From IMG/VR virus record IMGVR_UViG_3300044971_000858, positions 1 to 54,859 of that record: a stretch of DNA of 54,859 bases; one strand, written 5' to 3'. The notes beneath the pieces are model-generated. The model had not been told where the DNA came from. It did not search any database and worked only from the letters and a program-made list of their open reading frames with translations. Below, one piece after another: positions 1,408 through 39,318 of this stretch. Every line of letters starts with the position of its first letter. Within the stretch, counting starts at the first letter, position 1. This DNA is from a virus. The position numbers and the translations under genes are program-made.

Positions 1408-3921
1408 ATGGCACTTACATTTAATCCTTTTACTGGTAAACTTGATTTTATCGGAAGTTCAGCAACCGCTGGAATTGGCGCAACAGGCGCGACAGGCCCC
1501 TCTGGCGGCCCTACAGGAGCTACGGGAGCAACGGGCGAAGCAGGCGCAACAGGCTCTGGAAGCACCGGGGCAACTGGTTTAGTTGGCGCGACAGGGGCTA
1601 CGGGATTAAGTGTAACAGGAGCAACAGGAGCAACAGGAGTTGGATCGACTGGTGCAACGGGCGTTGCGGGTGGGCAAGGCTCCACAGGTGCTACAGGAAT
1701 CGCTGGAACTGATGGCGCAACAGGTGCTACAGGAACCTCTGGTGGACAAGGTAGCACAGGAGCCACTGGTTTGTCTGGCAATGACGGAGCTACAGGAAGC
1801 ACAGGCGCGACTGGGTTAAGTGGAAACGATGGTGCGACTGGAGCCACGGGTATTGCTGGGGCAGATGGAGCGACTGGAGCTACAGGAACACAAGGTGATG
1901 TCGGGGCAACTGGAGCGACTGGAGTTGGTGAAGCAGGAGCTACAGGTGCTACGGGCGTTGATGGTGCTACTGGAGCTACTGGAATCCAAGGCTCCACAGG
2001 GTCTACTGGTGCGACTGGAACTGCTGGCGTTGATGGGGCGACAGGGGCAACGGGAGTTGACGGAGCCACAGGCGCGACTGGGGTAGCTGGAAACGATGGA
2101 GCCACAGGAGCAACTGGTATTACTGGCGCGGACGGCTCTACAGGAGCTACGGGCGTTCAAGGGGATGTTGGTTCTACTGGCGCAACTGGAATAGCAGGAG
2201 CAGACGGCTCGACAGGGGCAACAGGTCTGGAAGGCGCGACTGGAGCGACTGGTATCGGAGCTACAGGAGCCACTGGCCCTCAAGGAACTCCGGGACAATC
2301 GGCATCATTTTTCGACTATAAAGCAAAAACGACGATCACAACTAGCGACCCAACCCCAACGCATCTAATTTGGAATAATGCGACTCAAGTATCCGCTACG
2401 CAAATCAATGTCTCGCACATTGACAAAAACAATGTCGATGTCGATGTGTTTCTGGAACTCATAAAGCAAGGGGACACGCTCATTCTGCAAGACGCAACCA
2501 ATAGTAACAACTACCAAAAATGGACTGTTTCTGCACCCCCAGTTCCGCAAACTGGTTATGTTGAGTATCCAGTCACATTAGTTACCTCGGCTGGGACAGG
2601 CACAACTAATTTTGCGAACAACCATGACCTTGCATTCATTGTATTCTCGGCAGGTATCGCTGGGGCAACTGGAGCAACTGGTGTAGGCGCAACTGGCGCG
2701 ACAGGCGTTGCGGGAGCGGATGGTGCGACTGGCGCGACTGGTTTAGAAGGAGCGACTGGAGCCACGGGAATCGGAGCTACGGGTGCAACGGGCGTTGCTG
2801 GAAATGACGGGGCGACTGGCGCGACAGGTATTGCTGGTAACGATGGAGCCACAGGAAGCACAGGCGCAACCGGAATAGGCGCAAGCGGAGCAACTGGTGC
2901 AACGGGATCATCCGCAGCAATTACACCGGGAATAGTTGATAATGCAATAGTTCGTGCAGATGGAACTGGAAATAATGCAATTCAAGGTTCTGATATTAAC
3001 ATTGATGATGCTACAACTTCTACACAAGCGAATATTGCTCTCACGAACCAGCATAGTGGACAAACTAACTCCGCGCTTGTCATCACACCAAAAGGCACAG
3101 GGGCGTTGATCGTTGGCCCAAAACCAGATGGAACTGCAACTGGAGGAAATGCAAGGGGCGCAAATGCGGTTGATTTGCAAACGAAACGATTCGCTGCAAA
3201 CAATGTAGCGTCTGGAGCAAGTGCAGTTGCGATTGGGGAAAGCAATGTTTCGTCAGCAACAAATTCAGTTGCGATTGGCGTTGAGAATATAGCTTCTTCA
3301 AATTATGCAACTTGCTTTGGGATCGGAAATACAGCGTCTACAGGTGCGCAGTCATCTGTTTTAGGCGGTCGTTCAAATATTGCAAATGCGACTGGCAGCG
3401 TAGTAGTTGGAGGAGGGGCAACTAATTTCGGGAACCAAGCCTCAGGCGATTATAGCTTAACATTAGCTGGTCGGCGGGCACTGGCGGATAGGTCAGCAAT
3501 GTTGGCTCAGGCAAACGGTTCATTCAGCGCACTAGGTGATGCCCAACGCGCACGCTTCGTCCTTCGTTGCAAGACTACGACAAATACTGGAGTTGAAATG
3601 GCATTGGACGGAGCAGCGACATATCTTGGAATTCCATCTGGAAAGATCATTGCCTGCACAATTAACATTACTGGAAGCAAATCAGATGGAACTGCCGTTG
3701 CTCACTACTTGCGCCAATACTGCGTGAAAAATGTCGGTGGAACCTCTTCACAAGTTTACGCTCCAGTGACTATCGGAACCGATAACGCCGCAGGAACAAC
3801 GATTGCGCTTTCTGCAAATAACGCTGATGATACACTTCGCATCTTGGTTACTGGTATTACTTCTGAAACATGGCGTTGGGTAGCTTCTGTAGATGCAGTA
3901 GAAGTGGCTTACGGAACATAA
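1408..3921 (+). CDS. Collagen-like tail fibre with YadA-head-like repeats
   Basis: An 837-residue appendage protein. The N-terminus ([14 protein letters not shown]) matches the short leader peptide common on podovirus fibres. Residues about 25-295 and 420-505 are G-A-T/G-x-x collagen-like triplets, which predict a trimeric triple helix, split by a globular insert at about 297-415. Residues about 590-680 hold repeats of the form [19 protein letters not shown] and GAQSSVLGG, the signature of left-handed beta-roll heads seen in trimeric autotransporter adhesins. A C-terminal beta domain probably contacts the receptor. Role: host attachment. The architecture is directly visible; receptor and attachment point are unknown. 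Confidence 0.85.
3771..3784. repeat. Dispersed 14-bp palindrome (core GAAC), in frame
   Basis: Perfect copy inside the fibre reading frame, encoding T-I-G-T-D-N near the C-terminus. Confidence 0.85.
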
Positions 3922-3926
3922 TTACT

Positions 3927-4169
3927 ATGCTTAAAACATACGGACTCATATTTCCAAACGGAGAAAAATATCTCTCCAGTGTTGTGCTGGACGATGAAGG
4001 CAATCCACGGATTGACACCATTCGACCATATCCAGTGCCAGAAGATTGGGTTGATCCAACGCTTGTAGAACTAATCAAAGCTGATCCTCCCGGCCCAGAA
4101 ACGGAATGGGAAAGCTACCTTGAATGGTTCCCTGATAAGGTAGAAGTGCATTGGAAACAAATATCGTAA
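3927..4169 (+). CDS. Small acidic protein between fibre genes
   Basis: An 80-residue protein rich in Pro, Glu and Trp, with no recognised family. The ATG at 3927 is preferred over the in-frame start at 3870 because the latter would overlap the fibre gene by 52 bases. It lies between two collagen-like fibre genes and may be a fibre assembly factor or attachment adaptor. Its stop codon (TAA 4167-4169) is formed inside a dispersed palindrome. Confidence 0.6.
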   Translation: MLKTYGLIFPNGEKYLSSVVLDDEGNPRIDTIRPYPVPEDWVDPTLVELIKADPPGPETEWESYLEWFPDKVEVHWKQIS

Positions 4170-4175
4170 ACGATA
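4162..4175. repeat. Dispersed 14-bp palindrome (core TAAA)
   Basis: Perfect copy that contains the stop codon of the preceding gene and ends 6 bases before the ATG at 4182. Confidence 0.9.
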
Positions 4176-4181
4176 AATCCC

Positions 4182-5999
4182 ATGAGCAATTGCTGTAACG
4201 AAACAATCATTGTAGCTTCTTACGCGAGATCAGCAAAAGAAAGCGCAGCGAGTGCCGCGCATTCGGCTTGCTTGGCAATGCAGGCAATCGGAGCCAGCGG
4301 AGCAACTGGTGCTACTGGCGTTGGAGCTACGGGTGCGACTGGACTCACGGGCGCAACTGGGCCAAGCGGTGGGCCTACCGGAGCAACTGGAGCCACAGGC
4401 GAAGGTGCAACTGGAGCCACAGGATTATCGGGAATTAACGGAACTACAGGTGCTACAGGATTGCGCGGAGCTACTGGCAGCACAGGCGCGACAGGAAACC
4501 AAGGCGCAACTGGGCCGCAAGGTTCTACTGGCATCGGCGCAAGCGGAGCAACGGGAGCCACTGGTCAACAAGGGCCAATCGGCCCACAAGGTTCCACCGG
4601 AAGTATCGGCCCTCGCGGAGCAACTGGATTAGATGGGCCAATTGGAGCCACGGGGCCAAGTGGCGGCCCTACTGGTGCTACGGGATTAACTGGCTCAACT
4701 GGGGCTACTGGCATCGGCGCAACTGGACTTCAAGGTTCTACGGGCGCAACAGGTATTCAAGGAATTCAAGGTAATGTTGGTTCTACCGGAGCCACTGGAA
4801 TCCAAGGATCAACTGGTCTTACAGGAGCAACAGGATCAAGCGGGATTCAAGGAGCTACAGGATCGACTGGTGAGATTGGAAGCACGGGTGCTACAGGAAC
4901 CGCTGGCATTGATGGAGCAACTGGAGCCACCGGAATCCAAGGCGTTCAAGGCGCAACAGGAGCCACAGGAGTTGCAGGCGAACAAGGCAGCACAGGTGCA
5001 ACGGGCGTTGCTGGTTCTACAGGAGCGACAGGCGCGACTGGAATTCAAGGTTCTACAGGAGCAACAGGGTTGACTGGCTCTACAGGCGCAACTGGCGTTG
5101 CAGGAAGCAATGGTGCTACTGGTTCGACAGGCGCGACTGGAATTGCTGGTTTAGATGGAGCTACCGGAGCTACTGGTGTGGGTGCGACTGGTGCGACAGG
5201 AGCGACTGGCGGCATGGCGGTAGCAGATGTCCAAGTATTCTTGGCAAGCGGAACTTGGACTAAACCAGTTGGTGCAAAATCCGTTGAAGTTCAAGTTGTC
5301 GGCGGTGGTGGTGGCGGGGGCAGTGGACGCAAAGGAGCAGTTGCATCGGTGCGTGGCGGTGGCGGAGGGGGTGCAGGTGCTGGAACAAGCATTATTTCAT
5401 TCGACGCATCATCTTTAGGAGCAACTGTATCGGTTATAGTTGGCGCAGGTGGTGCAGGGGGAGCATCTGTAACCGCTGCTAGTGGAAACGGAAGCGCAGG
5501 AGCGGCAGGTGGCGATTCTCTTTTTGGAATTTTTCGAGGCCGTGGAGGTGGAGGCGGCTCTGGTGGATTCGTCGCCACGGCAAATGGTGGCACAGCAGGA
5601 TCGGGGCAGTTTAATGGAACGGCAGGCGGGGCAGGCGCGGCAACAACCGCCGCAGTAAATGCCGCCGGAGCAACATTTGTCTCTGGCGCGGGTGGTGGTG
5701 GGGGAATTGATTCTGCGAACACGCTATTCGCTGCTTCTAACGGTGGCGCAATCAACTCAACAAACCTCGCTGGCACAGGAGTCAACACATCGCCAACTCC
5801 GCACGGTCTTATCACCGCACTTGGGCAAGGAGGTGGCGGTGGCAGTGCTTCCGCTACTGGAAATGCAAACTCTGGAGGAAATGGTGGACTCTATGGAGGC
5901 GGGGGTGGAGGAGGAGGCGCATCCACTGAAGCTGTTGGAAACTCTGGTGCTGGCGGAACTGGTGGTCAAGGAATCGTCATCGTAACAACATACTTCTAA
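4182..5999 (+). CDS. Collagen-like fibre with polyglycine adhesin tip
   Basis: A 605-residue protein. A short N-terminal helical segment (residues 1-35, Ala/Ser rich with several Cys) is followed by about 300 residues of G-A-T/G-x-x triplets. The C-terminal 250 residues are glycine-rich, with at least six runs of 4-7 glycines separated by short beta-like segments, starting with a [16 protein letters not shown] motif. That motif and layout are typical of polyglycine-sandwich receptor-binding tips on phage fibres. The likely role is recognition of the host surface, with loops between glycine runs giving specificity. Confidence 0.8.
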
Positions 6000-18125: not shown

Positions 18126-21100
18126 ATGGAATTTGAATTTCTTGGTGAAGTTAGTGGCAAGTCTGAAAAACCATCTACGACAAAACCGAATGATTCTGGA
18201 ATTGAGTTTGAATTTTTAGATGAAGTTACAGAGCAACCATCTGGACTCTTGCGTCAAGCGGCTGATATACCTATTCAGTTTGCCAAGGGTGTAGGTAGTG
18301 CGGTGAGGGGATACACGGATTTGTTTGGCGCGGATAATGAAGTATCCAAATCCATCGCTGGTTATGAGGACTACATGGATAGCATACTCTCTGCTGAATC
18401 AAAGAAAGATTCCAAGCGAGTATCAGAGCTTCTACAGAAGGCTAAAGATGGTGGATTCTTAGATAAGGTTGCGGCGGGATTTGAAGCATTCGCATCTGCA
18501 CCAGCAGAGATGACTGCAAATACTTTGGGGTATATGGTTCCTCAATTAGTGTTTGGTGTGGCAGGCAAGGCCGCGCAGTTGTCTAAAGCCGCGCAGGTTG
18601 GTCTTACTATAGGAACTGGATTTGCCCAAGGTGTAGGTATGGGTAAGGGGAATATCTACCAAGGCACGAAAGACTATCTTCGTGAGCAAGGTGTCCCAGA
18701 AGATCAGATTGAGCCTATCGCTTCACGGGCGCAAGCGTATAATGGCAAAAACTTGGATCAACTTCTTCTCAGCGGTGGACTAAACGCTCTCGCTGCATCT
18801 ACGGGTGCTGAAGCTATCTTGACTCGCGTTCTTTCCAAACAAGGCAAGGATGTTGGTGAAGATATTATCAAAGGCATCTTGAAGGGTGCTGGCGCGGAAG
18901 CTCCAATCGAAGGTGTCCAAAGCGCACAGGAAGCGATTGCTCCTAACATAGCACTACAAAGAGAAGGCTTTAATGTCCCGACATTCCAAGGCGCAATTGA
19001 AAGTGCTACAACTGGAATTGTTGCTGGTGGTCTTATCGGTGGCGCAGCGGGTGCTATCGAAGCTGCGAGTCCAGAGCAGAAGGCTCTTACCGATATTGAG
19101 AAGGAAGCTAACCGCAGGATGCGCGACTTGGAATCTGATAATCCAGCGGCGCAAGCACTCTCTACAGAGATTACAAGGCTGGAGCGGGGCATTGATAACA
19201 AACGACAAGACTTGGATGCACTTGAATCTACTTCACCAGAAGCAAATAGCTTGAGGTTGGACATTGCGGCAGACCAAAAGAAGTTGGCTACACTTAAAAC
19301 TGAAGCTGCCAAGTTTGGATTATCGGAAACGATAACTACGATAGAAGAACAACAGGCAGCGTTAGCAAAAACGATTACCGCACCCGCTGAACCAAAACCA
19401 CTACCGACTGATGTATTGCCCACCGAAACACTGGGCGCAACCTATGGCAGAGAAGAACAAGTCTATGATGTATTCGGAGAGATAACGCGCAAGCCAGTAT
19501 CTATACCTAAACCTGCTGAATTGCCCGCCGCGCCTACGATTGAAGAACAAACCGCAGAGGGAACCTACGGAGGACAGACTGGAGTGTTTGATGTATTCGC
19601 TGGAGCAAGAAGGAAGCCAGTAGTCACCGAGCAAGCTGCACCAGCAGAAGCTCCCGCGCCAGAGATTGCGCCAATTGCAGAACCTACTGTTAAAATTTCC
19701 CGTGGAGAAAATTTCTCTATGGATGGAGAATACAATGTGTCGATTGGGGATAAAAAATATAGGATTTTCAAAGATTCAGAAAGTGGATACTGGTATGATG
19801 CTGGCGTTCGAGAAGATGCTGTAACTCAAGGGAAGGCAATTCAAGGAATGCCTTGGTTGGGACTTCTATCAACGGAAACGCGCAAAGACGCTATCGCTGA
19901 ACTTGTAAATAAATACAAGAAAGAGCCAATCACCCCCGCAGTATCGGAAACGATAACGGAGCCAGTCTCAGTTGAAAATGTAGTCGGCAAGAAGGTGACT
20001 GATTCAATGGGTGCATTGCCTCAAAAGGCAACCAAAGCGAGGGAAGCATTGCAGGGATACACGCCTATTTTCAAGATAGGAGACTTCTATGAATTTATTG
20101 GTGAAGAAGCAGGGCTATCTGGATCAACTGTTGTTGGCACTGGAAAGTCGGCGAGGTCATCACTTCCATATCATCAAGTATCAAAGCTACAAGAAATAGC
20201 AAACAAGACGGGGAAACCTATCGCTATTATCGCAAATACAAAGGTAGCTGAAGTCATTACCCCCGCAGTATCGGAAACGATAACGGAACCAGTAACCCCA
20301 ACCGAAGTTAAGACAACTACAGAACCAACCAAGACATCTCCCGTGGCATCGACAAGTAAGGCTGCTGGTGATGTTGTGAATGAGATTGAAAGGGTAGTTG
20401 ACATCAAGGGTGTAAGAGCAGCAAAACAAATCTTTGATAAAGTAATCCAAACATTAGAGAGTTTAGTCGAGGAATCAAAAGCATCCGCTGGATTTCAAAC
20501 CGTTGAGTTTCGTCCATCCGCGCAAAAGAAATATGGTCTTGGCACAATATTTATTGACGGAGAATATGTAGCTTCAGTTGGAAAATATGGAGATGTTCGA
20601 CCTAATGAGGAATATGAACTAAAAAAAGAACTCCCATCAAGTTTTGATATTCGTGACTTATCTCCTGCGAAACTAAAGCAAAGCATTGAACTTGGGGTTG
20701 CTTCAAAAATAGCAAGAAGGAATAATAAGAATCAAAAGTATATTGTTCACATTCCGGGTGATGGAACTTTTAAGATTGAATCAAATCCAATTGCTGTGGC
20801 TGAAGTTGTTCGCAGAATCAAAACTAACGGGCCTTCAGCGTGGAAGGGAATTTATGAACCAAAACTCGGAGAAAAAGGCGGCGTTCTAATCCCCACCAAA
20901 GAAGACTTCATCCAAGCAGGACAGAACATCTACGAGGCTGGCATGGAGTTTGGTGCTTGGGCTAAACAGATGATCCAGCGATTCGGTGATGCGGTGAGAG
21001 AGTTTCTTGGGGAAGTATGGCAAGCAGTAAGTGGTGCGCCAGCGAAGTTGAATGAACTGATGGGGTATCTTCCAAAGAAGGGTGAGGCAGGTGCAGTCAA

Positions 21101-24100
21101 TGTAGGTAAGGGTAAGATAGGTGAGAAAGCTAAAGCCGCAGAAAAGCCAGCAGAACCTACTCCAGAACAACCAACGCCTACACCAGAAAAGCCAACTAAA
21201 CCTGTAACAGAAGCCCCATCAGCAGCCCGCAAAAAAATAATGGGCGAAGAGATTGGTGAGTTGAAAGACACACCAAAAAACATCATAGCTAAAACCAAGG
21301 CATTACTTCGTGAAAGAGTATTTGATCCTACCAAAGTAACCGAACAGAATACGATTGAAGCATTCCGTGCGCTTGGAAAGCTGACTGGCAACAAGCAAGA
21401 AAGAAGGGATTTTGCTGATGAACTCAATGATATTGCTGCGATTGTAGAAGATACTGGTGCGGCTTCTGAAGTAAGCATGGGTGCTGCATTGTTCGTCAAT
21501 GACCTCTTTGAGTATGCTGTAAGGCTGGCAGCGGAAGGGCAGAAGATGATGCTTGGCATAATGATGACCAATATCAATCGGTTGCCAACAGGAACAGAAG
21601 GCCGAAGTGATGCTGGTAGGGCATTGCGAGCAGCAAGGGAGATGAAAGATACCTTCCTTACTATGGCGCAAGCCGAGCAGGATGCCTTCATCAACTACGC
21701 TGCTGAGTTTGTTTACGGCCCAAACCCAACCAAAGAACAAGTTGACTCTATCCAGATCGGATACGATGCGGTAGAGAAAGTTGAAGAACCAACTGCTGAA
21801 GAATTGACTGATGAGCTTGATGAAGTAGGCAAGAAGACAGGCACAGATTTGGTAGCAAAGATTGAAGATGAGATTGCTCAGGCTACATCACCTACTAAAG
21901 ACCCAATTGTATCTACCATACTTACATTGCAGAAGCTCTATGGTGGAACTATTGAAACGAGATACCTTGAGGCGCGGGAGTCGGCGCAGAAGATTAAGGA
22001 AGGCGTAAAGAAAATCCTTACTGGCGGCATCACAAACTACCGAGGAAAAATGGTTGAGGGTGCGGCTTCTGGATTGGAGTCTGGATTCTGGAAGACACTT
22101 GCTAATACGGAGAATAAACCCGGCCCACTTGGAGAACTTGATAATGCACAGAACCGAGAGCTTGGGAGCATTGTAAAGAGTATGCTTATATCTCTTGGTT
22201 TAAAGGGAACTCCACCCAATACCAAGATGGACATCTATGAGCAAGTAGCCAGCATCCTTGGGGAGAAGCCACTTTCTAACGACAAAATCAAACTTGCTGA
22301 TGAAAAGATTAGGGATGAGATCAATCGCAAGCGGGAAAAAGAACTTTCAGAAACTGAAGATCAAGATGCTCAAGATGCCATCAATCTGAAGTATAATGGC
22401 ATAGAGAACGCTTGGGATCAGTCGATGGCGCGGCAGTTGGATATACCAATAAGTGATGCAATGCTTCGCCGCCTTATCTTCAATGAACTCAAAGAAGAAA
22501 AGACGAGTATTACTGATCTTGCTAAACTGATGAACGAAGAACCTGTTATTGGATCAAGCAGGCAGGATCGTTTGGTTAATTCTATCATCAGCAAGATTGC
22601 TGGAGTAACATTTGAAGGACAGAATCCTGCTGACTATTCTGCACTCAAAGAATACTTAGGTAATCAACTTGAATCATTGATCCAAGAGAAGCAGTTGAAG
22701 TCCAATGCCGCTAAAGCTAAAGCGCAATTAGCCAAAGATGCTAAAGGAAGCGTTGAGTTGCAGGCAGAAAAGGCAGAGAACGAAGCTCAATCGCAGATCG
22801 AAAGATTGGCTAAGATTCAATCAGATACTCCTTCATTCCCCGGAGAAGCGCAAATGAATCCTGTCCATGAGGCAGTAAAGAATGCCTTGAAGTTGAATCT
22901 GAATAGGATGTTTGATCCAAGTCAATCTGCTGAAATCATATCTAACTTCAAGAAATCATTCGTGAAAGAACTCATGGGATTTGGGGTGAAAGAACAGCCA
23001 GCAACTATTCTCGCTGATGTTGTAGGAAGGCAGATTGAAATCAACTCTTTAAACAACCAACTTAAATCCATTGATCGTGCGATTGAGAAAGGATCAATCT
23101 CGGAAATCGTCAAAGCAATCAAAGATACTCCGCTTGAAGAACAGCAGAAGCCAAATTGGAGATACGAAGTCATGCGCGACTACCTCCGCAAAGCAGGATT
23201 GAATGTCGCCCAGTCTGAAAGGATTGCGAAGTTGATGGACATCTCGCTCCAGAAACGCTTCACACAGGCTAAAGAGCAAGCGTTCACGGATGCCGTCAGC
23301 AAGACCGCGCCTTGGAAGGATGGCAATGTCCGTAGTAAACGAGCATTCCAGCAAGTTCTCCAAGCAATCCGTTCTGGTGCGCTTGATCCATCTCGCAACA
23401 TGGCAAGTGATATTGCCGCACTCAATGGATGGACTGGATTCACAGCAGACCAATACAAGAACCTACTCAAGAACGACACTATCCTTGCTGACCCAAAATC
23501 CAGTGATCTTGAAAAATCAGAAGCCTACAAAGCAATCCAAGACATCATTTCAAAATCCAAGTTGCCAATCAGAGCAAGGGATGTCATCGGACAATACTAC
23601 GATGCACAAGCATTGAGTGGTATCCCTACATTGACTGTGAACTCATTTTCACCAATCGCATTTGCTATGCGGAATGCTATCATTGAGATTGGATCGGGAA
23701 CACTCAAAGGTAATCCAAAGGCTATCACCAATGCGGCGACTGCCTTTGTGGATTCGATCAAATCGTGGGCGAATACAGTTGCCTTCTCTTTCAAGAACAA
23801 TGTCACAGTTTATTCAAATGTGGATTACATCGTGAACGATGACAATCTTCTTAGGCTTTATCGTCGCGGAGTAGATCAGTTCAAAGGTGGCAAGACACCA
23901 AGAGAACGAGCGGACGGAGTAAAGAACATGATGATTGGTATGATGGATTATGTTCGTCGTATCTTGAATGCTCTCGACTACGGCGCGATTGCCTCACTTC
24001 AGAACCAGAACATCAGCAAGTATGCGATGGCAGTAATGAAGAACAAGGGGATGAATAACAAGCAGGCTAATGAAGTCTTCGCTGCCATGATGAAAGAGAA

Positions 24101-25583
24101 GAATGATTTCTACCTTAATCAAATCGCTATCGGAACCGATAAAAACAAGGCGAGCATTCTCGCGGATGAGTATTACATTTCATCTTGGAAAAAATCTTTG
24201 GAGAAAGAAGGCGTTGGAGCAGGAGAAATCAAATCTGCAATGGATGCCGCTATCAACGATGCCTTGTCTTCAGTAGGTAGGAACAGGCAATCCCTCGACG
24301 CATTCAAAGAAGAAGCGACAAATTTAAAAGACGCTGGATTGGCATCCTCTCCTGCATTGTGGTTGTTGGAGTCTGTAGCTAACGCTGCTAATAGAAGCGA
24401 TAGCCAATTCATTAAGGTATTTAGCCGGGTGATCTATGGATTCGCCATCGTCCCTGCTCGCGTGATTCGTGAGACTGCATGGTTCTCGCCTTATGGATTC
24501 GTTCGCCTTGCGGTAGACAAAGCAATGCGTGGAAAAAATATGGACTCTCGTTATGCTCAATCCTTGGGAAGTGACTTCCAACGCCAGCAAAGATTCAATG
24601 AAGCGGTTGCTGGAACTGTAGCATTGATTGCGCTTGCCTCACTTCGCGGAAGTTCAACTGACGAACCAGAGGAAGATGAGTTCAAGATAGTATTTACTGG
24701 TAATGGGCCACAAAGGAAAGATGACGCTCAATTTTACGACTCTTGGTATAAGGCAGGCAATAAGCCAAACTCAATGATCGTGTCGTTTGGGAAAACCAAA
24801 TTTACTTTGAACATGATGAGGGGATTTGAGGCGTTCACTTGGCCTGCTATGATGCTTGGCGCGGTGGATGACCTTGAGATTCGCAAGAAGCAAAAGCGTG
24901 ATGCAAATACAGGAACTCAATTGGAAGATGCGAGCATCGTTGCAGGGTTTGTATTTGACGCAGCACTTCGCCGTGGGCCGTATGCCTTCACCACAAAATC
25001 ACTCTTCGGAACCTACGGAGACATCGGTGTAGAGGGCGTTGCCAAGGGGTTGACCTTCCCTGCAAAGACTCTGATTCCAGTATTAGGAACAAGTCTTGCA
25101 AGTAACCTATCGAACTTCATCAACGATCCGATTGATAGACGCACTCTGGATGGCGCGGTATGGTCAAACATCCCATTCATCGGGCCTGCCGTAGCACCGA
25201 AATCCTTAAATGCTTTTGGTGAACCATCGCTATCAACTGACTTCGCAAGCAAGATGTTTAAGCTCGGAGTTCCGATTGTCTATGACATCCCGACTGACAG
25301 AGAATCAATCATGCTTCATGAGTTAGTCTTGAGTAAGGGTGGCGGGCCAAGCATACCGACTCGGAATCAGCTTGCACAAAGGCTCGATAGGCAACCAACC
25401 AACAAGGAATACGAGATGTTCGTGAAGGAATATGGTGCGGTTCTCACGAAGTCCATGAAGAAGAATTACGAGAAACTTTCTGCGATGAAACCGGAGGCTT
25501 ACACCAAGGTTGTTGAGCGAATCGGTAATCGTGCAAGGGACATCGCAGAGAACAAAGTTAGGGTTGCTGCGAAAAAGCCTTGA
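18126..25583 (+). CDS. Giant polyvalent internal virion protein (2485 aa)
   Basis: The largest gene. Residues about 45-320 contain amphipathic and Gly/Ala-rich membrane-like segments (LGYMVPQLVFGVAGKAAQ, ATTGIVAGGLIGGAAGAI). Residues about 435-500 hold two copies of a TYG....V.DVF....RKPV repeat. A segment near 640-700 (FKIGDFYEFIGEEA) resembles the MutS N-terminal domain seen in phage polyvalent proteins. A Pro/Glu linker follows near 1000, then about 1400 residues of mostly helical sequence. Such mosaics are ejected with the DNA. No lytic transglycosylase motif was found. Three dispersed palindromes cluster in its first third, one more lies near 2000. Confidence 0.75.
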   Translation: MEFEFLGEVSGKSEKPSTTKPNDSGIEFEFLDEVTEQPSGLLRQAADIPIQFAKGVGSAVRGYTDLFGADNEVSKSIAGYEDYMDSILSAESKKDSKRVSELLQKAKDGGFLDKVAAGFEAFASAPAEMTANTLGYMVPQLVFGVAGKAAQLSKAAQVGLTIGTGFAQGVGMGKGNIYQGTKDYLREQGVPEDQIEPIASRAQAYNGKNLDQLLLSGGLNALAASTGAEAILTRVLSKQGKDVGEDIIKGILKGAGAEAPIEGVQSAQEAIAPNIALQREGFNVPTFQGAIESATTGIVAGGLIGGAAGAIEAASPEQKALTDIEKEANRRMRDLESDNPAAQALSTEITRLERGIDNKRQDLDALESTSPEANSLRLDIAADQKKLATLKTEAAKFGLSETITTIEEQQAALAKTITAPAEPKPLPTDVLPTETLGATYGREEQVYDVFGEITRKPVSIPKPAELPAAPTIEEQTAEGTYGGQTGVFDVFAGARRKPVVTEQAAPAEAPAPEIAPIAEPTVKISRGENFSMDGEYNVSIGDKKYRIFKDSESGYWYDAGVREDAVTQGKAIQGMPWLGLLSTETRKDAIAELVNKYKKEPITPAVSETITEPVSVENVVGKKVTDSMGALPQKATKAREALQGYTPIFKIGDFYEFIGEEAGLSGSTVVGTGKSARSSLPYHQVSKLQEIANKTGKPIAIIANTKVAEVITPAVSETITEPVTPTEVKTTTEPTKTSPVASTSKAAGDVVNEIERVVDIKGVRAAKQIFDKVIQTLESLVEESKASAGFQTVEFRPSAQKKYGLGTIFIDGEYVASVGKYGDVRPNEEYELKKELPSSFDIRDLSPAKLKQSIELGVASKIARRNNKNQKYIVHIPGDGTFKIESNPIAVAEVVRRIKTNGPSAWKGIYEPKLGEKGGVLIPTKEDFIQAGQNIYEAGMEFGAWAKQMIQRFGDAVREFLGEVWQAVSGAPAKLNELMGYLPKKGEAGAVNVGKGKIGEKAKAAEKPAEPTPEQPTPTPEKPTKPVTEAPSAARKKIMGEEIGELKDTPKNIIAKTKALLRERVFDPTKVTEQNTIEAFRALGKLTGNKQERRDFADELNDIAAIVEDTGAASEVSMGAALFVNDLFEYAVRLAAEGQKMMLGIMMTNINRLPTGTEGRSDAGRALRAAREMKDTFLTMAQAEQDAFINYAAEFVYGPNPTKEQVDSIQIGYDAVEKVEEPTAEELTDELDEVGKKTGTDLVAKIEDEIAQATSPTKDPIVSTILTLQKLYGGTIETRYLEARESAQKIKEGVKKILTGGITNYRGKMVEGAASGLESGFWKTLANTENKPGPLGELDNAQNRELGSIVKSMLISLGLKGTPPNTKMDIYEQVASILGEKPLSNDKIKLADEKIRDEINRKREKELSETEDQDAQDAINLKYNGIENAWDQSMARQLDIPISDAMLRRLIFNELKEEKTSITDLAKLMNEEPVIGSSRQDRLVNSIISKIAGVTFEGQNPADYSALKEYLGNQLESLIQEKQLKSNAAKAKAQLAKDAKGSVELQAEKAENEAQSQIERLAKIQSDTPSFPGEAQMNPVHEAVKNALKLNLNRMFDPSQSAEIISNFKKSFVKELMGFGVKEQPATILADVVGRQIEINSLNNQLKSIDRAIEKGSISEIVKAIKDTPLEEQQKPNWRYEVMRDYLRKAGLNVAQSERIAKLMDISLQKRFTQAKEQAFTDAVSKTAPWKDGNVRSKRAFQQVLQAIRSGALDPSRNMASDIAALNGWTGFTADQYKNLLKNDTILADPKSSDLEKSEAYKAIQDIISKSKLPIRARDVIGQYYDAQALSGIPTLTVNSFSPIAFAMRNAIIEIGSGTLKGNPKAITNAATAFVDSIKSWANTVAFSFKNNVTVYSNVDYIVNDDNLLRLYRRGVDQFKGGKTPRERADGVKNMMIGMMDYVRRILNALDYGAIASLQNQNISKYAMAVMKNKGMNNKQANEVFAAMMKEKNDFYLNQIAIGTDKNKASILADEYYISSWKKSLEKEGVGAGEIKSAMDAAINDALSSVGRNRQSLDAFKEEATNLKDAGLASSPALWLLESVANAANRSDSQFIKVFSRVIYGFAIVPARVIRETAWFSPYGFVRLAVDKAMRGKNMDSRYAQSLGSDFQRQQRFNEAVAGTVALIALASLRGSSTDEPEEDEFKIVFTGNGPQRKDDAQFYDSWYKAGNKPNSMIVSFGKTKFTLNMMRGFEAFTWPAMMLGAVDDLEIRKKQKRDANTGTQLEDASIVAGFVFDAALRRGPYAFTTKSLFGTYGDIGVEGVAKGLTFPAKTLIPVLGTSLASNLSNFINDPIDRRTLDGAVWSNIPFIGPAVAPKSLNAFGEPSLSTDFASKMFKLGVPIVYDIPTDRESIMLHELVLSKGGGPSIPTRNQLAQRLDRQPTNKEYEMFVKEYGAVLTKSMKKNYEKLSAMKPEAYTKVVERIGNRARDIAENKVRVAAKKP
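19321..19334. repeat. Dispersed 14-bp palindrome (core GAAA), in frame
   Basis: Perfect copy encoding L-S-E-T-I-T in the polyvalent protein; first of three within 960 bases. Confidence 0.88.
19942..19955. repeat. Dispersed 14-bp palindrome (core GAAA), in frame
   Basis: Perfect copy encoding V-S-E-T-I-T within the peptide ITPAVSETITEPV, which recurs at the next copy. Confidence 0.88.
20269..20282. repeat. Dispersed 14-bp palindrome (core GAAA), in frame
   Basis: Perfect copy encoding the same ITPAVSETITEPV peptide as the copy at 19942; the nucleotides around both are nearly identical, indicating local duplication. Confidence 0.88.
24128..24141. repeat. Dispersed 14-bp palindrome (core GAAC), in frame
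   Basis: Perfect copy encoding A-I-G-T-D-K in the last quarter of the polyvalent gene. Confidence 0.85.
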
Positions 25584-25733: not shown

Positions 25734-25761
25734 TTGACACGATAATCGTAGTCTGTAGATT
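25734..25761 (+). promoter_or_regulatory. Sigma70-type promoter for recombination block
   Basis: TTGACA at 25734-25739, a 16-base spacer and TAGATT at 25756-25761. An A/T-rich tract precedes it. The predicted transcription start (about 25768) falls on a GTG that opens an in-frame extension of the next gene. Confidence 0.6.
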
Positions 25762-26010: not shown

Positions 26011-26147
26011 TGGAAGACGATTACGACTTGAGCAGTGAGATTGAGGAGGAGCGGCAAGAAAGGCACGACCAAGAATGCGCTCGACTCGATTGGAAACAAG
26101 GAATCCGCCGACCATTTGACGAACCTGACGATGACGATCACGAATAA
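26010..26147 (+). CDS. Small acidic protein
   Basis: A 45-residue, strongly acidic protein (ends DEPDDDDHE). It begins at the TAATG overlap with the previous stop and overlaps the nuclease gene by 17 bases. Composition resembles small phage DNA mimics or inhibitors, but nothing specific can be said. Reality is supported mainly by the tight overlaps. Confidence 0.45.
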   Translation: MEDDYDLSSEIEEERQERHDQECARLDWKQGIRRPFDEPDDDDHE

Positions 26148-26994
26148 CTTTTTTCTCCCAGCACCCATGTATCGGGCGTTGGCACATGATGGTTATATGG
26201 CAGGTCAAAGGAAGGCTGACATCTCAGTGACTACCTTGATCGGGCCACCGAAGATCAACCAACTCAAGAAACGCTACTCTGACCAGATCGTAGAAGACGC
26301 ATCCGATAGGGTGTGGGCATTGCTTGGTCAGTCAGTGCATAAGGTTCTTGAGTTGGCAGGAGGAGAAGATGAGATGACTGAGAAGCGTCTTTACAAAGAG
26401 ATCAATGGATGGACGCTGACCGGACAGACTGACTTGTATGAAGTAGAGAAGGGAATCCTTTCTGACTTCAAGGTAACTTCAGTCTTCTCATTTCTTCTCG
26501 GACAAAAATCTGAGTGGGTAGCCCAACTCAACTGCAACGCCCTACTTTGGAGAGAGTATGGGTATTCCCCAAAGAAACTCCAGATCGTCGCCATCCTCCG
26601 TGACTGGCAGGCAAGTAAGGCAGAGTTTGATAAAGAGTATCCTCAGTGTGCAGTTCACATTGTTGACATACCTCTTTGGGATAACGAAGAGTGCATCGCC
26701 TACGCAGCAGAGCGGATCAAACTCCACCAAGCGGCGGCAGCAATGCCAGACGATACCATCCCTGCTTGTGATCCAAAGGAACGCTGGGCTAAACCAGATA
26801 CATTTGCCATTAAAAAAGATGGCAATAAGAGAGCAGCTAAAGTGTGCGAGACATTGGAGGAGGCGCAAAACTTACTTCCTACCTATGGAGCGAAACACTC
26901 AATCGAAAAACGAAGCGGAGGGGATATGCGTTGCGAGCGTTACTGCTCAGTAGCCCCCTTCTGCCACTACTACAAAACAACCTATAAAGAATAA
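26131..26994 (+). CDS. PD-(D/E)XK nuclease, RecB/Cas4-like
   Basis: A 287-residue nuclease. Visible family motifs: GQSVHKVLE (His70), GQTDLY (Asp101), SDFKVTS (Asp112, Lys114) and QLNCNALL (Gln132), which is the H-D-DxK-Q set of the RecB nuclease family. Three Cys at the C-terminus (CERYCSVAPFC) recall the Cas4/AddB iron-sulfur cluster, but no matching N-terminal Cys is present, so the cluster is doubtful. The ATG at 26131 is chosen because upstream in-frame starts lie inside the preceding gene. Likely role: DNA end processing for phage recombination, alongside the RecA relative and SSB. Confidence 0.8.
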   Translation: MTITNNFFLPAPMYRALAHDGYMAGQRKADISVTTLIGPPKINQLKKRYSDQIVEDASDRVWALLGQSVHKVLELAGGEDEMTEKRLYKEINGWTLTGQTDLYEVEKGILSDFKVTSVFSFLLGQKSEWVAQLNCNALLWREYGYSPKKLQIVAILRDWQASKAEFDKEYPQCAVHIVDIPLWDNEECIAYAAERIKLHQAAAAMPDDTIPACDPKERWAKPDTFAIKKDGNKRAAKVCETLEEAQNLLPTYGAKHSIEKRSGGDMRCERYCSVAPFCHYYKTTYKE

Positions 26995-27001
26995 CAAATA
27001 T

Positions 27002-27391
27002 ATGAATAACCTAATAGTTGAAAATATCACAAAAATTGATCCAAATATTGGATGTCACGAAACCCATTACGCAGCAATTGCACACATCCAAGAAGCAGGC
27101 GGGTTGTGCGCGTTGATAGACTTGACCAACGGACTTGACGTGGAAAGAGCCAAAGAGTTTGGCGTAAACTTCGATGAGTTACTGGTATCAAAAGCGGATA
27201 CAGCATATGAAGCATCAATGGTAGTCCGAACCCTAATTGCAGGAGGAGTTGATTTGATTGAGATTAACACCTGTAAATTCGTTTATGATCCAGAGAAGGA
27301 GGCGGCAGCAAAAGTTAAATCAGACAAATTCCACGCTGAACTCAGAGAGCATTTGTTGAAACGAAAAGAAGGAGTGAAATCAAATGAATAA
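27002..27391 (+). CDS. RecA-like core fragment lacking ATPase motifs
   Basis: A 129-residue protein. Residues about 12-90 align with RecA from the P-loop through Walker B: AGGLCALIDLTNGLDVERAK matches the RecA pattern AGG.AAFIDAEHALD..YAK, and GVNFDELLVSKADT matches GVD.DNLL.SQPDT. The P-loop GPESSGKT position reads DPNIGCHET, with the catalytic Lys and Thr gone. The RecA Glu96 position is Thr, and the Walker B Asp is Asn (VDLIEIN). The rest of RecA, including DNA-binding loops, is absent, replaced by a charged helix. ATP hydrolysis looks impossible, so a regulatory or binding role is inferred. Confidence 0.75.
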   Translation: MNNLIVENITKIDPNIGCHETHYAAIAHIQEAGGLCALIDLTNGLDVERAKEFGVNFDELLVSKADTAYEASMVVRTLIAGGVDLIEINTCKFVYDPEKEAAAKVKSDKFHAELREHLLKRKEGVKSNE

Positions 27392-27644
27392 CTTTAGAGC
27401 AGAATTAAAGCCCAGTGAACAAGTTGAAATCGGGGCATCTGATGCAGCTTATTTTTGGGAAAAAGCAACACACATATTGCAATGGGAAGTAAATAAAGAA
27501 TTCCATAAAGATCATCCTATGGTTGTTGCTAAATTAGCTGAAATTCAAGCAAGTTTATACACAAATAAAGCGATCACTACAGCTATTCAAGACTTGGCAA
27601 GTTCAATTAACTTTTTAGCTGAAGTAGTTAAATGCCGCGAATAA
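27384..27644 (+). CDS. Small helical protein, unknown
   Basis: An 86-residue helical protein overlapping the RecA-like gene by 8 bases. An AAGGAG stretch lies about 10 bases upstream, one of few Shine-Dalgarno-like sites in this genome. No domain recognised. Membership in the recombination operon is the only clue. Confidence 0.6.
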   Translation: MNNFRAELKPSEQVEIGASDAAYFWEKATHILQWEVNKEFHKDHPMVVAKLAEIQASLYTNKAITTAIQDLASSINFLAEVVKCRE

Positions 27645-27652
27645 TAAACCAA

Positions 27653-27889
27653 ATGAATAGTAAGCTGCTACCACCTATCGAAAGACTGGCGATGCTGCCA
27701 GAAGAGAATAGGCAAGAGGCATTAGACTGGATGGCAAACCAACCTCCAGCAAGGATAGATGATACTGTTGATCCAATCAGCCGATGGGAAATCCGCATTA
27801 GCTTGGGAGGATTAGGAGACTTCTATCGTATCTACGACAAAGCAACCAAAGAAATCAAAGAACTGGAAGTAAACGAAGACAACTGGTAA
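27653..27889 (+). CDS. Small protein, unknown
   Basis: A 78-residue protein. The ATG at 27653 is preferred; an ATG at 27632 in the same frame would overlap the previous gene and add seven residues. It contains a helical N-terminal part (PPIERLAMLPEENRQEALDW) and a beta-like C-terminal part. It ends 7 bases before the SSB gene. Family not recognised. Confidence 0.55.
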   Translation: MNSKLLPPIERLAMLPEENRQEALDWMANQPPARIDDTVDPISRWEIRISLGGLGDFYRIYDKATKEIKELEVNEDNW

Positions 27890-27896
27890 ATAAATT

Positions 27897-28721
27897 ATGA
27901 GTAACCAATTAGAAGGAATCGAACAGAAAGACATCATCAAACGGGTGACTGGCAAGGTCACTAAATTGTGGGAACCTAAGACATTCAACGGCCCGAAAGG
28001 TGAGTTTGTCATCCAAGGTGGAGACATTGAGATCGACGGGCAGACCTACGGCCTCAAGTTCTTTAACAATACACAGGAGCAAAGCATCAAAGGTAATGTA
28101 GTCACACTCTCATCAGTCCGTGGCAAGCATGGTTTGACTGGAGTATCCTTGGAGCATGAATCCTACGAAGGTAAGAACGGCAAGGTAGATCGTGACATCA
28201 TCAAGGTCACAGCTACTGGCAAGGTTGAGTTTGACCGACCAAGCGAAGAGCCTGCCCGTGTTACATCAGCACCCAAGGTTATCGTAACCGATAATCCAGA
28301 GAAGGCACTCGATGAGATCGTGGAGATGCACCAATACATCGACTCCTTGGTTCGCATGGCATACCTTGGCAAGATCACAGACGAAGAGACTCTTCGCTCT
28401 TATGTCTCCTCGGTCTTCATCGAAGCTAACCGCAAGGGTATCCACTACTCGACCAAGACCGAAGCACCAAAGAAGGAAGAACCAAAGGAAGAGCTTAATC
28501 CCGACGACTGGGGTTCAGCAATCGTTCCAGAAGGACATCCTAAGTTCAAAGAACTTGGCGGCAAGAAGCTGGCTGAGATCGGCAAGCCTGCCCTCACTAA
28601 ACTCTACGAGTATTTCTTGGAGAAAGGATTCACAACTCCATTCGCTAAGTGCGTAGAGAAAGCAGCAGAAGACCTCAACCTCGATGCTCCAGTAGAAGAA
28701 GCAGACGAAATCCCTTGGTAA
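27897..28721 (+). CDS. ssb: Single-stranded DNA-binding protein
   Basis: A 274-residue protein. The N-terminal 120 residues are beta-rich in an OB-like pattern (VTGKVTKLWEPKTF, FVIQGGDIEIDGQTYGLKFF, GNVVTLSSVRGKHG). A Lys/Glu linker and a second helical region follow. The protein ends in VEEADEIPW, an acidic tail with a hydrophobic-Pro-aromatic tip like the DDDIPF partner-docking tail of bacterial SSB. It would coat ssDNA during replication and recruit partners. It is longer than typical SSBs, so extra functions are possible. Confidence 0.7.
   Translation: MSNQLEGIEQKDIIKRVTGKVTKLWEPKTFNGPKGEFVIQGGDIEIDGQTYGLKFFNNTQEQSIKGNVVTLSSVRGKHGLTGVSLEHESYEGKNGKVDRDIIKVTATGKVEFDRPSEEPARVTSAPKVIVTDNPEKALDEIVEMHQYIDSLVRMAYLGKITDEETLRSYVSSVFIEANRKGIHYSTKTEAPKKEEPKEELNPDDWGSAIVPEGHPKFKELGGKKLAEIGKPALTKLYEYFLEKGFTTPFAKCVEKAAEDLNLDAPVEEADEIPW
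28280..28293. repeat. Dispersed 14-bp palindrome (core TAAC), in frame
   Basis: Perfect copy inside the SSB-like gene, encoding V-I-V-T-D-N. Confidence 0.85.
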
Positions 28722-28763: not shown

Positions 28764-29741
28764 ATGAAAAAGAAAGAATTAGAATTGTTCAGCCCAACTC
28801 AAGAGGGAATCATCGTTCCTCTGTCAAAGTATCTCAAGCAAATGGTCGAGTTTGCTAAATCGGAATGGCCCGGAGTAGCGATTACAGACTCCAAGGTGAA
28901 AGAAGTGTGGAAACTGGTAGCCTCCAACAGCTACATTGATGATGACCAACCAAATGAGGTTGCCGAAATGTTTGAGAAGATGTCCGCTGACTTGGATATG
29001 GCCGAGGAAATGGAAGAGGAACGCCTTGCCATGCCAGCAGTAGCAGAAGAAGTTGAGGTCGAACTTACCGAAGATGAACCAGTCAATGAATCCCTCGCTC
29101 TTGTGCAGAGTGTGAAGGATGGATTGGAACTTTCTTCGTTCACTCAGAAGTTCGACATTGGATCGGGGATGACTCAGTGCGTTCCCAAAGGTAAGGTAGA
29201 GATGAAGGATTGGGTAGCAGCATTTGCATTCGGTCTGACTCTGGAGTCGGGCGCACAATGGATCATCGGTGATTCGGTTGTAGCCTTGGAGAACGCAGGG
29301 CATGAGGATGTAGTCAACCAACTCTGCTCTAACTTCAAGAAGTCTTATCCAACTGTCTCCGGTTATGCCCGTGCTTGCCGTGCATTCCCTGCCGATAAGC
29401 GCGATCCAGCCCTTCCATTCACAGTCTATCGTGAGATTGGCAATGCTAACTTTGGTGACAACAGCACCAAGAAACAGCAGGAACTTCTTGAAGCAGCGAA
29501 GACTGAGAAGCTATCTTCAACTGAAGTAAGGAACCGAGTGCGGCATGAGCAGGGTAAAGAAGTAGATAAACCATCCGGTCATCGTTTTCTTCTTCTCAAT
29601 GTAGGTAACTTCTCCAACTCTGAAGTCCTCCGCTCAATGCCCGAAGAAGTGCAAGAACACCAACTCCTAATTGATTTAGGTGACAAGTCATGGTTTGATC
29701 CAGCCGAAGGAGAATGGTTGAAATTCTTGAAAGAACAATAA
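28764..29741 (+). CDS. Putative DNA-binding protein (LmbU/ParB-like HTH)
   Basis: A 325-residue protein. The N-terminal 110 residues are acidic and helical. Residues about 160-265 (WIIGDSVVALENAG.., then SYPTVSGYARACRAFPADKR, then LSSTEVRNRVRHEQG) resemble a helical DNA-binding domain found in LmbU-type regulators and reminiscent of KorB/ParB HTH domains. A C-terminal 55-residue domain follows. The leader CCTAAACCTAAACACAAC precedes the ATG without Shine-Dalgarno. It is one of two candidates (with the XRE protein at 45009) to bind the dispersed palindromes. Family call is tentative. Confidence 0.45.
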   Translation: MKKKELELFSPTQEGIIVPLSKYLKQMVEFAKSEWPGVAITDSKVKEVWKLVASNSYIDDDQPNEVAEMFEKMSADLDMAEEMEEERLAMPAVAEEVEVELTEDEPVNESLALVQSVKDGLELSSFTQKFDIGSGMTQCVPKGKVEMKDWVAAFAFGLTLESGAQWIIGDSVVALENAGHEDVVNQLCSNFKKSYPTVSGYARACRAFPADKRDPALPFTVYREIGNANFGDNSTKKQQELLEAAKTEKLSSTEVRNRVRHEQGKEVDKPSGHRFLLLNVGNFSNSEVLRSMPEEVQEHQLLIDLGDKSWFDPAEGEWLKFLKEQ

Positions 29742-30127: not shown

Positions 30128-30177
30128 AAAAAATGGGTCTGTTGTAGTCGGCTAGCTACGACAGGCCCAATTTTTTT
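30128..30177 (+). terminator. Terminator hairpin with upstream anti-loop
   Basis: TGGGTCTGTTGTAG (30134-30147) and CTACGACAGGCCCA (30156-30169) form a 14-bp stem with two G:U pairs, followed by AATTTTTTT. The 8-base loop TCGGCTAG (30148-30155) is complementary to CTAGCCGA at 30096-30103, extendable to 10 bp (30096-30105 with 30146-30155) by opening two stem pairs. The RNA can thus form a pseudoknot or an antiterminator. Confidence 0.8.
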
Positions 30178-37685: not shown

Positions 37686-38194
37686 AGTCCGAGTATCTTT
37701 GCCCCGTTTGGGTAGGTTCCGCGATAGATTTCCGTCTGTGCTTTCCTTACCACAAATACAGATGGTTTTCCGCTATGATCCCAGTAGGAGGTTAGTGGTT
37801 CTTTCTTAAATTGGACTACTGTGACTCCCATTTTTTCTGCTATCTCTAAGGCTATTGGGTCGGATTTGTAGATTTCTTTGTAGAGGACTCTCTTTATTTT
37901 ATATGCGGCTATGGTCTTTAGGCAGTCTCTACATGGGAGTAGGGTGGATACCAGTGTCTTTCCTTCGCCGGGTTGTGTATACCTCAAGGCATTCTGTTCT
38001 GCGTGGATTACGAACTTTGATCTCTCTTCTCTTGATGACCAGTCTTCTTCTACACCTTGAGGGAATCCGTTATACCCTACTGATGCTATGGAGTTGTCTT
38101 CTCTTAGGATCACCGCGCCAACTTTATGCCACGGGTCTTTTGACTTCTTGGCTACTACTTCAGCTATACTCATTGCATATTCGTCCCAGTTCAT
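37682..38194 (-). CDS. dCMP deaminase-like enzyme
   Basis: A 170-residue zinc deaminase. HAE at 64-66 and PCRDC at 87-91 are the zinc-binding and proton-shuttle motifs of the cytidine/deoxycytidylate deaminase fold. The N-terminus MNWDEYAMSIAEVVAKKSKD matches ComEB-type dCMP deaminases, which supply dUMP for dTMP synthesis. The ATG at 38194 is chosen because it overlaps the upstream stop (ATGA). No thymidylate synthase is present, so it feeds host pathways or a modified-base route. Confidence 0.85.
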   Translation of the reverse strand: MNWDEYAMSIAEVVAKKSKDPWHKVGAVILREDNSIASVGYNGFPQGVEEDWSSREERSKFVIHAEQNALRYTQPGEGKTLVSTLLPCRDCLKTIAAYKIKRVLYKEIYKSDPIALEIAEKMGVTVVQFKKEPLTSYWDHSGKPSVFVVRKAQTEIYRGTYPNGAKILGL

Positions 38195-39318
38195 GGATAG
38201 TATCTGTTCATTGCTTCGATGTCGTTTCCTTTGGCATACCATCCGTCTCCGGTGTAAACATCCATAACATCTGCGAAGTATTTCTCATACATGGGTGCTA
38301 CCCGCTCTAAGGTGAAGTTCTTTCCAAATCGGTGGCAGTCGTATGGGCAGATTCGGTCGATGTTCTTAATCGCATCTACGTAGTCACCCATAGTCCGGCA
38401 GCGGAATCCTGTATAACCATGTAGGTTATTTTCGGTGAAGCTACCCCAGTCGGAGGTAATTGTTGGAGTGCCAGAGAGTAGGTTTTCGATTTGGACTCCA
38501 CCGAATGGTTCTACATACTGACTTGGCAGGAATGATGCTTTAGCCCTCGACATGAGCCTCTTTCTGGTAGGAACATCAGCGTATCCTACATAGTGAACAT
38601 GGTCTGGTAGCTTGTAACCTTCCTCTTTTTGGCCTGCGATAACCAATTTTACCCCTGCTCGGTAGGTAGCTTCAATGGCAATATCTACACCTTTCCCAGA
38701 GTATACCCTACCCAGATACAGAAAGTAATCTTCTTTCTGGCCACAGAAGTCGAAGTCTTCTTTATCGAAGTAGTTTGGGATTACCACCGCATAGTTATCT
38801 TGCTGGCATTGTCCTACTGCCTGCATTCCGCAAAACGCATGGTAGATTGCGTAGGATTCAAATACCTTCCACCTCGCCCAGTGTCCACCTGCATATCCAA
38901 TACCCGGCTCAACTGTGATTAGGTCTGGATGCGCGTCACAGATTGGACGAACGCCACTTCCCCAAAATGGGAGAATGAAGTCATTCTTCTTCTTGCGCTG
39001 CCCAATTGCCTTAATAGCGTTTCGATAGAAGGTTTGATAGGCATGGTCATTCGTATCAAACTTGAAGAATGTTTTCCTCCAGTCATGTGATCCATAGCTT
39101 TTATTGAAGTCATCGTTGGTTAGGACAGGCACGTGTTCTGTGCAGATTAAGTCTGAATCTTCGTGTCCGTAGTGGATTACTTCATGGCCGCGCTGGGTCA
39201 TCATCTTCCCGAACTTCACTACCTTTTGGGTATAAGCGCAGGCGTTGAACTCTTTGGAGCTAACTGTGTGAGGTAAGCCAAGGCAATGGAATCTAAATTT
39301 ATCGTTTACGATACTCAT
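38191..39318 (-). CDS. Glycosyltransferase, family 4-like (GT-B)
   Basis: A 375-residue protein. The N-terminal Rossmann half has GHEVIHYG. The C-terminal half has YLGRVYSGKGVDIAIEA and the E-x7-E-like stretch EPFGGVQIENLLSGTPTI, typical nucleotide-sugar binding of GT4 enzymes. Substrate is unknown: phage DNA bases, virion proteins or host glycans are all possible. Its coupling to a dCMP deaminase makes base modification worth considering. Codons 2-7 contain a dispersed palindrome. Confidence 0.8.
   Translation of the reverse strand: MSIVNDKFRFHCLGLPHTVSSKEFNACAYTQKVVKFGKMMTQRGHEVIHYGHEDSDLICTEHVPVLTNDDFNKSYGSHDWRKTFFKFDTNDHAYQTFYRNAIKAIGQRKKKNDFILPFWGSGVRPICDAHPDLITVEPGIGYAGGHWARWKVFESYAIYHAFCGMQAVGQCQQDNYAVVIPNYFDKEDFDFCGQKEDYFLYLGRVYSGKGVDIAIEATYRAGVKLVIAGQKEEGYKLPDHVHYVGYADVPTRKRLMSRAKASFLPSQYVEPFGGVQIENLLSGTPTITSDWGSFTENNLHGYTGFRCRTMGDYVDAIKNIDRICPYDCHRFGKNFTLERVAPMYEKYFADVMDVYTGDGWYAKGNDIEAMNRYYP
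39300..39313. repeat. Dispersed 14-bp palindrome (core TTTA), at gene start
   Basis: Perfect copy covering codons 2-7 of the glycosyltransferase (S-I-V-N-D-K on the - strand). Confidence 0.88.

Follow-up and report, generated by a model that had tools for sequence, protein, structure and literature searches.

A phage-borne relative of RecA that lacks the ATPase site and appears to keep a subunit interface

What does a phage retain when it carries only part of a RecA gene, and what could such a part do? The question is raised by an open reading frame (positions 27002-27391, plus strand) in a 54,859-base virus record, the whole of which we call the window. The gene, here named pseudo-RecA, had been described in an initial annotation as a RecA relative with an intact open frame. 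Both statements are borne out: the frame is uninterrupted over 129 amino acids, and Pfam, TIGR02012, hhalign and phmmer searches against solved RecAs in the PDB all lead to the same family.

RecA homology and the missing ATPase site

Residues 23-107 of pseudo-RecA align to positions 70-154 of the 262-position Pfam RecA profile (Pfam: PF00154) with an E-value of 2.4e-12 and a score of 47.3 bits, the cut-off being 27, and TIGR02012 is matched with an E-value of 3e-11. RecA was the sole family matched in Pfam up to an E-value of 10, where the SulA model stayed unmatched, and a search of the protein against defence families gave no match. A phmmer search against the PDB at an E-value of 0.01 found 22 distinct solved RecA sequences and nothing else. 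When the three-member pseudo-RecA family was compared with six RecAs, hhalign gave a probability of 98.6 and an E-value of 5.6e-16 over residues 22-120 (99 columns, 35% identity, nearly ungapped). A match this far beyond chance indicates that the open reading frame is a genuine RecA relative. The homology is secure from residue 23 to about 93 and marginal past RecA position ~148; the C terminus of the protein lies at RecA position ~175-180, and the hhalign extension to residue 120 is weak. Within the secure core the elements follow each other as the end of helix C, a strand, helix D, a strand, helix E and the strand equivalent to Walker B (Table 1).

AlphaFold with the three family sequences reached a pLDDT of 50 and gave nothing usable. 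In a second run 48 viral RecA segments were added to the alignment, and the pLDDT was 84 overall and about 85-97 in the core blocks. The model begins with a low-confidence N-terminal helix, followed by a helix, strand, helix, strand, helix, strand and a long helix, and it shows a RecA half-core with only one half of the core sheet. Among the 50 PDB matches listed by Foldseek there were RecA structures throughout, aligned over 64-88 columns with an RMSD of 1.1-2.7 Å for most. Structure prediction had been proposed as a check that might reveal a different fold: the RecA-informed model gives the RecA half-core and no different fold, and the model built without RecA sequences was too poor to serve. 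The RecA-informed model is consistent with the RecA homology and not independent of it, and such a predicted half-core may not be stable on its own.

Table 1. Features of the pseudo-RecA gene and its operon in the window, with the evidence for each.
Feature	Position	Strand	Evidence
Promoter-like TTGACA-N16-TAGATT upstream of the operon, second copy at 25580	25734..25761	+	Weak evidence
Gene for a PD-(D/E)XK-type exonuclease, forms the conserved left edge of the slot	26131..26994	+	phrog_2139, E 6.9e-50
Pseudo-RecA ORF (P0001), 129 aa	27002..27391	+	Intact frame; Pfam RecA E 2.4e-12; hhalign E 5.6e-16
First 21 residues, without detectable similarity to RecA or a recognisable P-loop	27002..27064	+	Shuffle test; low pLDDT
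RecA-homologous core, residues 23-93 = RecA ~77-148 (E. coli numbering)	27068..27280	+	Pfam, hhalign, AlphaFold, Foldseek
Putative retained acceptor surface, residues 55-84 = RecA 109-139	27164..27253	+	Conservation count; interface according to PMC4457935, PMC4374754, PMC6511836
C-terminal predicted helix and tail	27281..27391	+	AlphaFold; weak hhalign to residue 120
86-aa accessory ORF, 8-base overlap with pseudo-RecA gene	27384..27644	+	ORF list; loci of relatives
85-aa accessory ORF, often present at this place in related phages	27632..27889	+	Loci of relatives
Conserved 274-aa gene, right slot border, SSB/OB-like	27897..28721	+	Appearance and neighbourhood only; in 41 loci
Terminator-like stem-loop, 15 pairs and T run, operon end	30134..30169	+	Sequence scan

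Walker A (GPESSGKT), loop L2 and the C-terminal half of RecA are absent from pseudo-RecA. At the other ATPase positions E96 is replaced by Thr, Y103 by Arg and D144 by Asn, with S145 replaced by Thr or Val; Thr at E96 and Asn at D144 occur in every pseudo-RecA copy. D94 and D100 are retained, the latter being an adenine-side residue present in 97% of RecAs. The initial annotation had named Thr at the Glu96 position and Asn for the Walker B Asp, and the alignment with RecA agrees on both. Its wider statement that all ATPase residues are lost is nearly right: Y103R joins these two substitutions, but D100 is kept. The described absence of the DNA-binding loops and the C-terminal half holds for L2 and for the C-terminal half.

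The P-loop had been read as DPNIGCHET, and this reading fails, as the homology starts at residue 22-23, past Walker A. We aligned residues 1-21 by profile and scored them against their own shuffles, with the core as a control (p < 0.001). Neither the comparison with the Walker A strand (p 0.13) nor that with the RecA N-terminal (oligomerisation) motif (p 0.72) set them apart from shuffles, and little of their sequence is conserved in the relative with 71% identity. Because the homology begins after Walker A and residues 1-21 score like shuffles, the Walker A motif is missing, rather than visibly mutated in place. Of the original observation as a whole the RecA identity therefore stands and the P-loop does not. 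The N terminus was also considered as the RecA oligomerisation motif itself, following a MAFFT placement and the low-confidence AlphaFold helix, but this candidate was rejected on the shuffle result.

The retained acceptor face

To locate what is kept, positions conserved in at least 70% of 77 RecAs were mapped ungapped onto pseudo-RecA. Pseudo-RecA keeps 8 of 11 such positions in RecA 79-94 and 9 of 16 in RecA 108-140; in RecA 95-107, with E96 and the adenine region, 3 of 9 are kept, and in RecA 141-175 none of 25. The equivalents of D112, L114, S117 and D139 are D58, L60, S63 and D84, which match the RecA consensus exactly in every copy, and position 113 is Glu, a common RecA variant. Strongly conserved RecA residues are changed within 108-140 as well, namely P119A, G122A, E123Y and L126S.

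The kept stretch, RecA ~79-140, corresponds to the face on which, in a RecA filament, the next subunit docks its N-terminal helix and strand (RecA-NT). A mutagenesis study selected RecA 79-137 since an extensive subunit-subunit interface (111-140) is found there (PMC4457935), and residues 112-117 lie at or near the subunit interface, close to UmuC (PMC4374754). K6 of one RecA subunit forms a salt bridge with D139 of its neighbour (PMC6511836; PMC2672939), and a RecA-NT-like motif in UmuC and many Y-family polymerases was proposed to dock at that face (PMC6511836). Judged by its sequence, pseudo-RecA is a RecA-derived pseudoenzyme cut down to one half of the core, about E. coli residues 79-140 with the strand that follows. 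Acceptor residues that are kept while the ATPase site is gone would be the pattern expected of a decoy acceptor for RecA-NT; 108-140 may also be kept for the remaining fold, not for binding.

Selection, distribution and cassette exchange

The pseudo-RecA gene was found in four of about 53 related IMG/VR records (L002, L003, L004 and L005), where related records are those that have the exonuclease gene in common, with the SSB-like gene beside it. The genes of L002, L003 and L004 are mutually identical, and the protein of L005 has 71% amino acid identity to that of the window. This makes three haplotypes in all, the window included, with the frame intact in every copy. A search for further relatives with other conserved peptides returned the same four records only.

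Between the window and L005, dN/dS is 0.21 in the core (residues 25-90, p 2e-5) and 0.33 over the whole gene (p 2e-5), values which rest mainly on this one pair of the three known haplotypes; the N terminus (0.50) and the C terminus (0.44) are not significant. The core is thus under purifying selection, and dN/dS, which had been suggested as a check, is not near 1. In a tree of core segments (73 columns) both pseudo-RecA versions form one clade (100/100) with a stem of 2.48 changes per site and tips of 0.15 and 0.27. The long stem together with the short tips suggests fast change early and constraint afterwards. The best RecA identities are about 42-45% over 67-77 residues and are shared by several unrelated RecAs. 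These identities and the long stem in the 73-column tree single out no donor lineage.

In all copies the gene is located in a variable slot between the exonuclease gene and the OB/SSB-like gene. The two border genes abut, with a gap of at most 8 bases, in about half of the related records, and the remaining records have small ORFs in the slot, the majority of 36-86 amino acids. The slot thus takes up several cargo genes, and pseudo-RecA is one of them. A RecB/Cas4-like nuclease and an SSB had been named as operon partners. The nuclease is recovered as the phrog_2139 exonuclease upstream, present in all related loci except L091; the product of the SSB-like gene had no match in Pfam, PHROGs or PDB sequences. 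Across the related loci of uncultured phages (L010-L099) the exonuclease/SSB-like junction (26131-27897 in the window) is a hotspot of small accessory genes with overlapping ATGA junctions, and it is a good place to seek host-takeover or anti-defence genes. Beyond the right border lies a conserved gene of 325 amino acids (28764-29741, plus strand) with weak matches to an LmbU-type regulator (8e-7) and to the PADLOC candidate family PDC-S02 (9e-4).

Of the 390 positions of the pseudo-RecA gene, 7 distinguish the window from L003, and 5 of these 7 fall at the 3' end, while the exonuclease genes of the two share 80% DNA identity. A near-identical gene between flanks that are about 20% different points to a recent exchange of the pseudo-RecA cassette between phages. 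Compared with L005, the 86 amino acid ORF of the window has 96% DNA identity (97% at the protein level) and the pseudo-RecA gene 75%, and therefore the slot genes move singly; in L002-L004 another ORF stands in the place of the 86 amino acid ORF. Pseudo-RecA is thus a maintained, mobile gene, and the description of it as a maintained pseudo-ATPase is supported by the dN/dS of the core, the intact frame in three haplotypes and the recent spread.

An AAGGAG motif and the 8-base overlap (ATGAATAA, ATGA) with the next start both lie at the 3' end of the gene, which may explain the conserved KRKEG-KSNE tail. The promoter-like pattern listed in Table 1 was found 8 times, compared to 6.0 expected by chance.

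In the 46 related records without pseudo-RecA, many of which are fragments, a search for RecA found none; two weak RecA matches lay in frames of 427-439 amino acids, which were taken as DnaB-like. With RecA absent from these relatives, the likely partner of pseudo-RecA would be the host RecA. Decay of an ancestral phage RecA on site is disfavoured, as the 46 relatives (some of them fragments) are RecA-less and the border genes abut in about half of the records. One genome scan for a cellular copy of pseudo-RecA gave only an ordinary Paludibacter RecA.

Possible functions of pseudo-RecA

Our preferred reading, favoured tentatively and with somewhat less than even confidence, is that pseudo-RecA serves as a decoy acceptor. 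It would block assembly by capturing the RecA-NT helix, either that of host RecA or that of Y-family polymerases. The soluble protein would bind the RecA-NT of host RecA monomers, or alternatively the exposed RecA-NT of a subunit at a filament end. Bound RecA subunits would be unable to add to the growing filament, and the outcome in infection would be less RecA-ssDNA filament growth, less SOS induction and less recombination. Alternatively, the acceptor face could have the RecA-NT-like tails of the host's Y-family polymerases as its partners. Slightly less likely still is the broader proposal of a counter-repair or counter-defence gene derived from a bacterial-type recombinase, in which the interface half is spread by cassette as a decoy against RecA assembly or RecA-dependent polymerase activation. 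The initial annotation had suggested that the protein could cap or poison host RecA filaments or block SOS induction. The capping or poisoning of RecA gains some support because the part that is retained is the subunit interface of RecA, acceptor residues included. That interpretation can be followed in part, for the maintained pseudo-ATPase and not for a P-loop degenerate in place.

Pseudo-RecA might also behave like ImuA and replace RecA in a host complex of a Y-family polymerase or ImuB, which would block or alter translesion synthesis and leave RecA filaments untouched. ImuA is described as a homologue of RecA that lacks Walker A/B and apparently does not self-associate (PMC6511836), RecA 112-117 contacts or adjoins UmuC (PMC4374754), and there is a weak match to the NCBIfam ImuA' model (E-value 0.0084; 15.9 bits, below the cut-off of 65). 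We regard this as unlikely, as the RecA match is far stronger (3e-11 compared to 0.0084) and a search for imuB or dnaE2 among the operon neighbours with Pfam and PHROGs identified no polymerase gene, though most small operon proteins are without a library match. The position of the gene directly between the exonuclease and SSB-like genes, in the same operon, would suit an accessory subunit of this recombination module, such as a structural clamp joining both products. This is rather unlikely: the gene occurs in 4 of about 53 related records and the border genes abut in about half, therefore the module works without it, and unrelated small genes occupy the slot too.

A RecA-derived scaffold could have been redirected against some unrelated target in the host, for instance FtsZ or a different protein that forms filaments. 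SulA, an inhibitor of cell division, blocks FtsZ with a short RecA-like fold that lacks a P-loop, and small genes in variable slots are presumably often host-takeover genes. Matches in Pfam up to an E-value of 10 are to RecA only, however, and another target would not require the kept acceptor residues, so we find this proposal distinctly improbable. Finally, the gene might be a functionless recA fragment decaying in the slot, with a tail conserved merely as the ribosome-binding site and start of the next gene. The very divergent stem (2.48 changes per site) and the AAGGAG and ATGA overlap in the last codons fit such a fragment, but the intact frame in all copies, the recent spread between phages and the dN/dS values (core 0.21, p 2e-5; whole gene 0.33) already disfavour it, and we consider it very unlikely.

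For the decoy acceptor, the nearest precedents would be ImuA and SulA, RecA-derived pseudoenzymes already known in cells. Like pseudo-RecA, ImuA and ImuA' are RecA homologues without the ATPase site (Walker A/B) and the C-terminal subdomain (PMC6511836); unlike ImuA', pseudo-RecA is phage-borne and much closer to RecA in sequence. Set against RecA itself, it shares the homology over core segment 77-148 (E-value 2.4e-12), the RecA-informed half-core model, the acceptors D112, L114, S117 and D139, and D100. It differs in its length (129 amino acids versus about 350), in the loss of Walker A, L2, the C-terminal half and a detectable N-terminal motif, and in E96T, Y103R and D144N.

RecX, a regulator of the RecA filament, is not known to be a RecA relative. 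It caps the 3' end of the RecA filament (PMC4374754). The proposed outcome is the same, a limit on filament extension, whereas pseudo-RecA would be a piece of RecA itself and would act on the RecA-NT side. Sak4 and UvsX are likewise phage-encoded RecA-superfamily proteins near recombination genes and are taken as working recombinases or annealers (Sak4: PMC5928155); the PHROGs UvsX match of pseudo-RecA is weak (E-value 0.01). Among phage proteins, GIL01 gp7 acts on LexA (PMC4551915) and P1 Ref (PMC4713147) and phiNM1 Gp16 (PMC12817073) act on the RecA/LexA system; none of the effectors found is a piece of RecA. In the literature searched there was no phage-borne RecA-derived pseudoenzyme keeping essentially the subunit interface alone.

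If RecA is indeed blocked, pseudo-RecA would be a natural, minimal, genetically encoded inhibitor of RecA assembly, a tool with which filament nucleation, SOS control and contacts between RecA and polymerases could be dissected. It would also hint that a host defence or repair pathway depends on RecA in infection.

Elsewhere in the window, the terminase of this phage had no match in the phage collection searched, and a glycosyltransferase (38194-39318, minus strand) is 72% identical to the one of Synechococcus phage S-CAM7 (phrog_3408, E-value 9e-188). A single ORF of 2,485 amino acids (18126-25583, plus strand) possibly encodes a large virion or ejection protein. Two collagen-like/tail-fibre genes lie close together at 1408-5999 (plus strand), with repeated matches to the same tail families.
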